In this document: positions 49,937 to 52,874 of the stretch, one piece after another | How the letters are laid out: each line of letters begins with the position of its first letter | Position numbering within the stretch: position 1 is the first letter of the stretch | From: Bacteroidota bacterium | GTDB taxonomy: Bacteria > Bacteroidota > Bacteroidia > AKYH767-A > OLB10 | Length of the DNA stretch: 59,191 nucleotides | Direction of reading: 5' to 3' | Assembly (NCBI GenBank): GCA_025352785.1 | Contig: JANXSD010000112.1 | Span: 1 to 59,191, forward strand | Program-made: the position numbers and the translations under genes | Notes under the pieces: model-generated | The model's database searches: none | Seen by the model: the letters and a program-made list of their open reading frames with translations, nothing else | Told to the model about the DNA's origin: nothing

Positions 49937-51169
49937 TTAATCCTCAATTTTAATGGTATGTCCCATTTTATCACGTTTAGTACGCAAATAAAATTCATTG
50001 TGTTGATTGGAATGAATTTCAATAGGAATTCGTTCAACTACCTCTAATCCATAACCAATTAACCCTGCACGTTTTGTAGGATTATTGGTCATCAACCGCA
50101 TTTTACAAACGCCTAAATCACGAAGAATTTGTGCACCAACGCCATAATCTCGTTCATCCATATCAAAGCCCAATTGAAGATTCGCCTCCACGGTATCTAA
50201 CCCTTGCTCTTGAAGTTTATATGCTTTTAACTTATTTAATAGTCCAATACCACGACCTTCCTGATTCATGTATACGATAACGCCCTTTCCTTCTTTCTCT
50301 ATTGTTTCCATCGCCTTATGCAACTGCGGGCCGCAATCACAACGACAAGAACCAAAAATATCGCCCGTTAAACAAGAGGAATGTACGCGAACAAGTATCG
50401 GTTCATCTTTATCCCATGTTCCTTTTACCAGTGCGAGATGTTCCTGCCCAGTAGTAATTTGTTTAAATGCGACTAATTCGAAATTTCCCCATAGTGTTGG
50501 CATCTTTACCTCCACTTGGCGCTCAATTAATGATTCTTTATTGAGTCGATATTTGATCAAATCTTCAATAGAAATTATTTTCAATCCGAAACGTTCAGCT
50601 ATGATCATCAATTGAGGAAGACGCGCCATGGAACCATCTTCGTTCATTATTTCAACAATAGCTCCTGATGGCTTTAGTCCTGCTAATCGTGAAAGATCTA
50701 CGCAAGCTTCTGTATGGCCTGCTCTTCTGAGAACCCCACCCTTTTTTGCTCGAAGCGGGAAAATATGTCCTGGGCGACCAAGATCTTCTGGTTTAGTGTC
50801 GGAGTTAATAAGAGCTTTAATTGTTTTTGATCGGTCAGAGGCAGAAATACCAGTTGTACAACCATGACCAAGCAAATCAACAGAAACAGTAAAGGCAGTT
50901 TCGTGTGATGAGGTATTATTATTCACCATCATTTCTAGATTCAGCTCGTTGCAGCGTTCTTCGGTGATGGCAACACAAATTAATCCTCTTCCATGTGTCG
51001 CCATAAAATTAACAGACTCTGGAGTGGCATACTGAGAAGCCATTAAAAAATCTCCTTCGTTTTCCCTATCGGCATCATCAACAACAATAATTATTTTGCC
51101 TTGGCGTAGATCTTCAAGGGCTTCTTCGATAGTATTTAGAACCGGAATTTCTGTTTGTGAATCTTTCAT
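49937..51169 (-). CDS. ribBA: Bifunctional DHBP synthase / GTP cyclohydrolase II RibBA
   Basis: Catalyses the two entry reactions of riboflavin synthesis. Residues ~8-208 are DHBP synthase ([58 protein letters not shown]). Residues ~215-405 are GTP cyclohydrolase II, with zinc cysteines in [21 protein letters not shown], the catalytic Tyr/Arg loop [22 protein letters not shown], and [16 protein letters not shown]. All key motifs are present. It is a single gene with its own -7 element. No FMN riboswitch is recognisable upstream. Confidence 0.95.
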
Positions 51170-51184
51170 GGTGTATTAATCCTT

Positions 51185-51192
51185 CAAAGTTA
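51185..51192 (-). promoter_or_regulatory. -7 promoter element of ribBA
   Basis: The minus strand reads TAACTTTG, an exact TAnnTTTG match 15 bases upstream of the ribBA ATG, implying a very short leader. That leaves no room for a leader riboswitch if this promoter is used. Confidence 0.5.
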
Positions 51193-51493
51193 CGGAATAC
51201 AAATATGCTGAAGCTAAAACAGTTCCTTTGAAGGATTGTTTTAGCACATTATGATTAAAATCTTACAGCTAAAAATGATTGTTTTACTAAAAATATCTTT
51301 AATGAGCATAAATTTTTCAGAGGAGAAAATGAATTGCTCCTCTTTATTCACAAGCATTTGATTTACAGATGTAATGTTTTTATAAAAAAGGGGAACCTAA
51401 AGTAGTGCGAGGCGTTTAAATTTAACATAAGCACAAAGGGAATATCGGAAGTGCTATCGTTCTTTAAATAAACATCGAATTAAGATAGGGTGA

Positions 51494-51507
51494 CCTCCGA
51501 AAGGGGG
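51494..51507 (+). repeat. GAAA-tetraloop hairpin at left edge of the hairpin cluster
   Basis: CCTCC (51494-51498) pairs with GGGGG (51503-51507), including one T-G pair, closing a GAAA loop of the GNRA type. It immediately precedes the first CCGTAA-loop unit and may be part of the same structured element. Confidence 0.5.
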
Positions 51508-51523
51508 ATGGTTTTAGGTTGAT

Positions 51524-51565
51524 GTCAGTTGAGGGGTAACCCCGTAAGGTTACCCTGGCCCTGAC
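51524..51565 (+). repeat. CCGTAA-loop hairpin, unit A (two-stem form)
   Basis: The outer stem GTCAG (51524-51528) pairs with CTGAC (51561-51565). The inner stem GGGTAACC (51534-51541) pairs with GGTTACCC (51548-51555). The loop is CCGTAA. It is preceded by TTTTAGGTTGA, which also precedes unit C. Confidence 0.85.
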
Positions 51566-51589
51566 CTCCTATTCTACTCTTAAAATAAA

Positions 51590-51605
51590 TTGCCCCGTAA
51601 GGCAA
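51590..51605 (+). repeat. CCGTAA-loop hairpin, unit B1 (short form)
   Basis: TTGCC (51590-51594) and GGCAA (51601-51605) enclose CCGTAA. There is no outer stem. The closing CC/GG pairs and the loop are as in the long units. Confidence 0.75.
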
Positions 51606-51612
51606 ATCCTAT

Positions 51613-51626
51613 TGCCCTGTAAGGCA
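51613..51626 (+). repeat. CTGTAA-loop hairpin, unit B2 (short form)
   Basis: TGCC (51613-51616) and GGCA (51623-51626) enclose CTGTAA, a one-base variant of the common loop. It lies 7 bases after unit B1 and looks like a degenerate tandem copy. Confidence 0.65.
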
Positions 51627-51657
51627 TATCACATGGTTTTGGTGTTTTTAGGTTGAT

Positions 51658-51700
51658 TGTCAGTAAGGGGGTAGCCCCGTAAGGCTACCCCAGACTGACA
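51658..51700 (+). repeat. CCGTAA-loop hairpin, unit C (two-stem form)
   Basis: The outer stem TGTCAG (51658-51663) pairs with CTGACA (51695-51700). The inner stem GGGGTAGCC (51668-51676) pairs with GGCTACCCC (51683-51691). The loop is CCGTAA. Compared with unit A, the inner A-T pair at the third position from the loop is G-C here, with both strands changed. Confidence 0.88.
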
Positions 51701-51760
51701 TCTTTATCTAAGATCCTGTGAAAAAAGGAAAAAAACTTTGGTTAGCTTTTCTGGTTGAGA

Positions 51761-51799
51761 GTCAGACTTTCGCAACCCCGTAAGGTTGTAAGCTCTGAC
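51761..51799 (+). repeat. CCGTAA-loop hairpin, unit D (two-stem form)
   Basis: The outer stem GTCAGA (51761-51766) pairs with TCTGAC (51794-51799). The inner stem GCAACC (51772-51777) pairs with GGTTGT (51784-51789, one G-T pair). The loop is CCGTAA. GGTTGAGA precedes the outer arm, similar to the GGTTGA before units A and C. Confidence 0.85.
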
Positions 51800-51812
51800 G
51801 TTCAATTCAGAT

Positions 51813-51856
51813 TTCAGAATTCAGAATTATTTTTTTTCAATTCTGCATTCTGAATT
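51813..51856. repeat. Imperfect inverted repeat of ATTCAGAATT words
   Basis: TTCAGAATTCAGAATT on the left pairs with AATTCTGCATTCTGAA on the right with one mismatch, around a loop containing a T8 tract. It touches the FAH stop codon. For FAH transcripts it is a stable 3' hairpin but lacks a following U tract, so a terminator role is uncertain. Confidence 0.55.
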
Positions 51857-52874
51857 AATGATCTCCTTTCTTCAAATCCAGTATCGAAAAATCTGAATCT
51901 ACTTTACGGATAGAATTAGTTAAACATCCTAAACCATCAACGGTCATTTCCACTACATCTCCCTCTTGTAACCATTGCACGGGATAATTGGCATCGTTCA
52001 ATTTTCCAGTTCCATTTAATTCCAAAAAACATCCTGTTCCAACAGTTCCGGAACCAATTACATCGCCAGGGAAAATATCTACACCGTAAGCACAACGTTC
52101 GATAATTTCAGCAAAAGTCCAATCCATATCTCCCATGTTTCCAGCACTAACCTCCACACCATTCACTCGGCATACCATTTTCAAATTATAATTATTGCCA
52201 GTATGGTTTTCTTTTGGAGCAATTTTATAAGCCTCCAATTCATCGGGTGTTACGAGCCATGGTCCAATAACAGTTGAAAAATCTTTCCCCTTTGCAGGAC
52301 CTAGATTTAACTTCATCTCTTCCATCTGTAATTGTCGGGCGCTAATATCATTCATGATCATATATCCAGCAATGTATTGATCAGCGTCTTGCGCTTTAAT
52401 GTTTCGTCCTTTTTTTCCAATCACTACAGAAACCTCCAGCTCGAAATCCAATTGTTTGAAATGATCCTTCATGCACCATATTTCCCCCGGACCTTGAATT
52501 GCATTGTGATTGGTGAAATAGAAAATTGGATAATCATCAAATTCTGGAATCATCTCAACTCTTCGGTTACGTCGTGCCGCCGCAACGTGCTGACGAAAGG
52601 CATATCCATCACGGCAAGAAGTAGGATGCGTTACAGGAGCAAGGATTTGCACATCCTGCCAATGCAAACCTTCAATATCAGAAGTTAACTTCAACTTCTC
52701 CTCCACTTTCCGAGCTTGATCCATTTCCTTTTCTTCGCCATCCAATAATTCTTTCATGGTAGATGATGCATTTAATCCAAAAGTTTTTGCCGAACTTTGA
52801 AGATTATAAATGCGTTCATTCAAGTATAAACCAAGGCATTCTTGCCCATCTTTTTGATAACTGACGAATTTCAT
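51855..52874 (-). CDS. Fumarylacetoacetate hydrolase family protein
   Basis: This 339-residue FAH-fold protein probably cleaves fumarylacetoacetate to fumarate and acetoacetate, the last step of tyrosine breakdown. Residues ~1-80 form the N-terminal cap (MKFVSYQKDGQECLGLYLN). The catalytic domain has FELEVSVVIGKKGRNI (Glu metal ligands), YMIMNDISARQLQMEE (Asp), KGKDFSTVIGPWLVTPDEL and GDVIGSGTVGTG. It is shorter than mammalian FAH (about 420) and closer to the bacterial FAHA-like enzymes. The pairing with divergent hmgA supports the pathway assignment; maleylacetoacetate isomerase is not in the window. Confidence 0.88.
   Translation of the reverse strand: MKFVSYQKDGQECLGLYLNERIYNLQSSAKTFGLNASSTMKELLDGEEKEMDQARKVEEKLKLTSDIEGLHWQDVQILAPVTHPTSCRDGYAFRQHVAAARRNRRVEMIPEFDDYPIFYFTNHNAIQGPGEIWCMKDHFKQLDFELEVSVVIGKKGRNIKAQDADQYIAGYMIMNDISARQLQMEEMKLNLGPAKGKDFSTVIGPWLVTPDELEAYKIAPKENHTGNNYNLKMVCRVNGVEVSAGNMGDMDWTFAEIIERCAYGVDIFPGDVIGSGTVGTGCFLELNGTGKLNDANYPVQWLQEGDVVEMTVDGLGCLTNSIRKVDSDFSILDLKKGDH

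Follow-up and report, generated by a model that had tools for sequence, protein, structure and literature searches.

The intergenic hairpin array at positions 51524 to 51799 looks like a seemingly undescribed small RNA composed of repeated hairpins. Apart from its function, a predicted noncoding RNA gene on the + strand that stands alone and spans about 400 to 450 nt is well supported by sequence comparison. Judged from the architecture, the most likely function of the RNA would be that of a decoy, or sponge. The window, as the term is used here, is the whole stretch of DNA analyzed, which is 59,191 nucleotides of contig JANXSD010000112.1 from a Bacteroidota bacterium.

Hairpins and flanking elements of the array

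The array contains five hairpins, four with the loop CCGTAA and one with CTGTAA. The original prediction described five hairpins, three of which (units A, D, and E) were said to have an outer GTCAG/CTGAC stem after a GGTTGA word, and all of these are present. The array and its surroundings are composed as follows.

49937-51169, - strand: ribBA, a vitamin B2 gene named from its sequence; opposite strand to the array
51363-51374, strand unassigned: TTACAGATGTAA box, a putative promoter or operator element, judged by conservation only
51390-51463, + strand: putative RNA, conserved 5' domain, seen in the alignment of ribBA-linked loci
51494-51507, + strand: CCTCC-GAAA-GGGGG hairpin, found among the aligned loci only in this genome
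51516-51565, + strand: unit A, AGGTTGA and then a two-tiered hairpin with the loop CCGTAA at 51542-51547
51524-51528 and 51561-51565, + strand: outer stem of unit A, GTCAG/CTGAC
51533-51541 and 51548-51556, + strand: inner stem of unit A
51590-51605, + strand: unit B1, short hairpin TTGCC-CCGTAA-GGCAA
51613-51626, + strand: unit B2, short hairpin TGCC-CTGTAA-GGCA with the variant loop
51650-51700, + strand: unit D, AGGTTGA and then a two-tiered hairpin with the loop CCGTAA at 51677-51682
51658-51664 and 51694-51700, + strand: outer stem of unit D, TGTCAGT/ACTGACA
51668-51676 and 51683-51691, + strand: inner stem of unit D
51753-51799, + strand: unit E, GGTTGA and then a two-tiered hairpin with the loop CCGTAA at 51778-51783
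51761-51766 and 51794-51799, + strand: outer stem of unit E, GTCAGA/TCTGAC
51772-51777 and 51784-51789, + strand: inner stem of unit E, GCAACC/GGTTGT
51800-51857, strand unassigned: AT-rich inverted repeat around a T-run (about 51829-51837), inferred terminator
51855-52874, - strand: FAA_hydrolase (PF01557) gene, on the other flank of the array

The core sequence CCCCGTAAGG, with at most one mismatch allowed, occurs six times in the window, where 0.7 occurrences would be expected, and this count was reached in 0 of 100 shuffles. The array region also has a more stable fold than its shuffles (z -5.3, + strand). The GAAA-loop hairpin at 51494-51507 is unrelated to the CCGTAA array.

The element probably extends past 51494-51799, from a conserved region starting at about 51363 to the AT-rich repeat with its T-run, which ends at about 51857. 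The 5' domain contains GAACCT, CGTTTAA, a small hairpin (AGCAC/GTGCT), and ATCGTTCT. The inverted repeat at the other end is a putative 3' end common to the array and the convergent gene. Several relatives have a TTACA-NN-TGTAA-like or TGTAAG-repeat motif 5' of the array that is akin to the TTACAGATGTAA box, and this box seems to resemble the operators of the BlaI/CopY repressor family. The canonical promoter motif TAnnTTTG was not found upstream of the ribBA-linked arrays in the alignment. Just upstream of the ribBA start, at 51178-51237, there is a 12-nt perfect inverted repeat (AATCCTTCAAAG/CTTTGAAGGATT).

None of the families in Rfam 15 scored above its gathering threshold in the window, and none did so at the arrays of relatives. 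The literature searched, from which the 224 candidate RNAs listed in 2017 were absent, gave no description of the motif.

Both stems covary, and the putative RNA would be read away from ribBA

The original prediction proposed selection on structure, possibly of a structured RNA, and named covariation as a check. We examined 118 clustered cores that were taken without any pairing requirement. In permutation tests that take the sequences as independent, with shared ancestry uncorrected, the inner stem had 5.32 of 6 positions paired, against 3.55 ± 0.08 (maximum, 3.76) when the arms were permuted. In a test of the outer stem of the same kind, the figures were 6.08 against 4.71 ± 0.16. Thus, the outer stem covaries as well as the inner one. 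Its variants include GTCAG/CTGAC, GTCTA/TAGAC, CAGGGA/TCCCTG, and TGATTCAG/CTGAATCG. At least four Watson-Crick pairs were present in 56 of 69 clustered cores, versus 4 of 40 single cores, and almost never in scrambled controls.

The loop had been called invariant, and this is nearly so. Among 80 strong hairpins from 37 arrays, 49 loops were CCGTAA, 2 were CTGTAA, and every other loop occurred at most twice; the arrays were gathered with CCGTAA as bait, so that the constancy is partly a product of this choice. The variant CTGTAA occurs both here and in relatives. The closing pair is near-invariant too, being C:G in 105 of the 118 clustered cores.

The wobble pairs on the CCGTAA strand comprise 24 G·U and 8 A·C (p = 0.007). 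A T-tract lies directly 3' of the last hairpin in 18 of 38 arrays, and directly 3' of an inner hairpin in only 2 of 101 cases. The G·U bias and the terminators at the last hairpins therefore indicate an RNA gene that is transcribed away from ribBA, on the + strand. The covariation of both stems, the strand bias, the one-strand terminators, and the conserved synteny described below all bear out the proposed selection on structure.

Arrays keep their place next to ribBA and recur in distant Bacteroidota

The array lies upstream of ribBA in most genomes of the family. At 18 of 20 loci that were fetched for their hairpins, ribBA adjoins it and is encoded on the other strand. The gene on the far side varies; it encodes an FAA hydrolase in some genera and a glycosyltransferase or other proteins elsewhere. 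Copies of the core in other members of the family are clustered as well, and most often a genome has one main cluster. These copies in relatives, together with the covariation, refute a local tandem duplication without function, which had been the null reading of the region.

Other loci, too, have arrays of two to nine hairpins, and so do distant families of the Bacteroidota, GC-rich ones included. One shared locus is flanked by a PKD/secreted-protein gene on one side and a DUF6580/TonB-receptor pair on the other. At a POR/TPP gene pair there is one hairpin in this genome and one in genome G001, but seven in G015 and eight in G010. In more distant genomes, arrays lie near a thymidylate synthase gene or adjoin an Hsp70 (dnaK-like) gene. 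The tandem pattern is uncommon in the phylum. It matched at least 9 of 395 genomes, several of these matches not being hairpins, and at least 10 of 196 genomes in the class of G193; the search accepts short spacings only, and both counts are lower bounds.

Two further observations were made in relatives. Genome G003 has 49 exact copies of the CCCCGTAAGG 10-mer. Outside the array, most of the sampled copies are almost stemless and look coding, so we rejected the dispersed copies as hairpins; their abundance suggests a codon or peptide bias of that genome. On contig L061, a cobalamin riboswitch (RF00174, 110 bits) at 1765-1949 lies about 3 kb from a CCGTAA array.

Comparison with known RNAs and search for a binding factor

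The putative RNA resembles CsrB/CsrC and RsmY/RsmZ, which are likewise stand-alone RNAs with a 3' terminator and several hairpins that share one loop motif on variable stems. CsrB/RsmZ RNAs titrate CsrA/RsmA. These decoys have GGA in their loops, whereas the loop here is CCGUAA. Another difference is the absence of CsrA/RsmA: a search for CsrA (PF02599) found it in 0 of the 21 array-bearing genomes tested, with 3 of 14 found in the control, and we rejected CsrA as the partner. Only 1 of 33 genomes searched had CsrA.

Tandem hairpins with hexanucleotide loops are also found in ANTAR target RNAs (PMC3369931). These have two hairpins and often adjoin a terminator, and their protein recognizes the loop and probably also the top pair (PMC3369931). 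However, positions 1 and 4 of ANTAR target loops are A and G (PMC3369931), whereas the array loop is C1 C2 G3 U4 A5 A6, and the arrays have two to nine hairpins instead of two. The ANTAR domain (PF03861) gave no match above the cut-off in array-bearing genomes, where two weak matches fell below it, and the control genomes also gave none, so that the sensitivity of the search is uncertain. An ANTAR partner was provisionally set aside.

The FopS/GibS sRNAs and RbpB of Bacteroides offer another likeness, a multicopy RNA family in the same phylum (PMC11697453). FopS RNAs are about 65 to 70 nt long and act through base pairing via a 5' seed (PMC11697453). Unlike in that system, RRM proteins were found neither here nor in most of the family. 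This absence does not match the occurrence of the arrays, and an RRM partner was rejected. Hairpin-cluster intrinsic terminators also have clusters of hairpins near 3' ends, but they are not a stand-alone RNA gene, and the abstract mentions no common loop (PMC8355165). A protein-recognized hairpin, one of the options in the original prediction, is the reading that we favor, but the searches for CsrA, ANTAR, and RRM proteins named no protein.

A possible decoy RNA and the alternatives

We suggest that the RNA comprises the 5' domain and then five hairpin modules, some of them two-tiered, each of which would present the loop CCGUAA closed by C:G. One loop-specific factor, probably a protein, may dock at the repeated, near-invariant loops. 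The similar hairpin arrays across the phylum suggest that one component of the cell recognizes the loop. In this scenario, the RNA would titrate the factor as a multivalent decoy or scaffold, as CsrB/RsmZ do with CsrA/RsmA. The few isolated CCGUAA hairpins at the 3' ends of bacterial and viral genes may be targets or competitors of the same factor. We give such a Csr/Rsm-like role for the stand-alone RNA about an even chance.

A structural role, though rather unlikely, is the main alternative. C(CCGUAA)G hairpins may be unusually stable or resistant to nucleases and serve in termination and 3'-end protection, as UUCG and GNRA hairpins do, and the arrays would then be protective strings and not binding sites. 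Isolated CCGTAA terminators are indeed present in several genomes, and viral contig L470 has four of them beside three GAAA-loop terminators within 8 kb. A two-hairpin CCGTAA element with a terminator is found in viral contigs (L416, L344, L362, L383, L395, L402, L449, and L472), and in ones related to Flavobacterium phages it comes after the gene for the major head protein. In L416, which is related there to phage immuto, the element (1965-2020) is preceded by this gene (PHROG 138) and followed by a PhoH gene. At the matching place, after the same gene, the terminator of Flavobacterium phage immuto has a UUCG loop, which suits a structural role as well as recognition. The viral CCGTAA terminators and their immuto counterpart thus keep the structural explanation alive. 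Against it, an unbiased sample of terminator-like sites in this genome contained none with CCGTAA outside the array, and this rejects CCGTAA as a loop of terminators throughout the genome. Outside the array, this genome yielded only two more CCGTAA hairpins, and of the 101 inner hairpins in arrays, 99 are not terminators. The loop also gains no extra stability in a nearest-neighbor energy model; such models miss some special loops.

We consider it improbable that the CCGUAA loops pair with UUACGG in target RNAs, which would make the array a multi-site antisense RNA. Multi-loop antisense RNAs are known in principle, and the loop is unpaired and nearly invariant. However, start-codon regions in three genome samples show no enrichment of UUACGG, and the near-invariant closing C:G is not needed for pairing. 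The constant position upstream of ribBA would fit a 5' untranslated region, in which the array is the ribBA leader on the - strand and replaces a missing FMN riboswitch. The FMN riboswitch (RF00050) was found in 0 of 61 genomes of the family and related ones (control, 7 of 14), a result that also rejects the array as an FMN riboswitch itself. But the terminators and the G·U pairs indicate the + strand, and many arrays are at loci without ribBA, so that a leader is very improbable. Palindromes repeated in an intergenic region could also be mobile DNA, and a REP-like mobile repeat had been among the original suggestions. We find a REP-like or other mobile DNA hairpin hardly credible, because a single-hairpin covariance model gave only six matches in the whole genome, four of them inside the array. 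This low copy number largely refutes a mobile repeat. In addition, the position is kept in related genomes and between genera, and there is no transposase among the annotated neighbor genes. The original prediction had also proposed a count of copies; they do occur at other loci and in relatives, but they are few in this genome.

If the RNA is a decoy, it may belong to a wider system. We propose, tentatively and with less confidence than we have in the decoy itself, that Bacteroidota possess a posttranscriptional system analogous but unrelated to Csr/Rsm. In such a system, a protein would read C(CCGUAA)G in mRNAs and would be titrated by multi-hairpin RNAs, and some phages of these bacteria would carry the same hairpins behind the gene for their major head protein. 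To our knowledge, little is known of global control by RNA in Bacteroidota. The near-invariant loop module, which recurs across the phylum and in viral contigs, may serve as a bait RNA in the search for a new RNA-binding factor and for the regulon that it controls.
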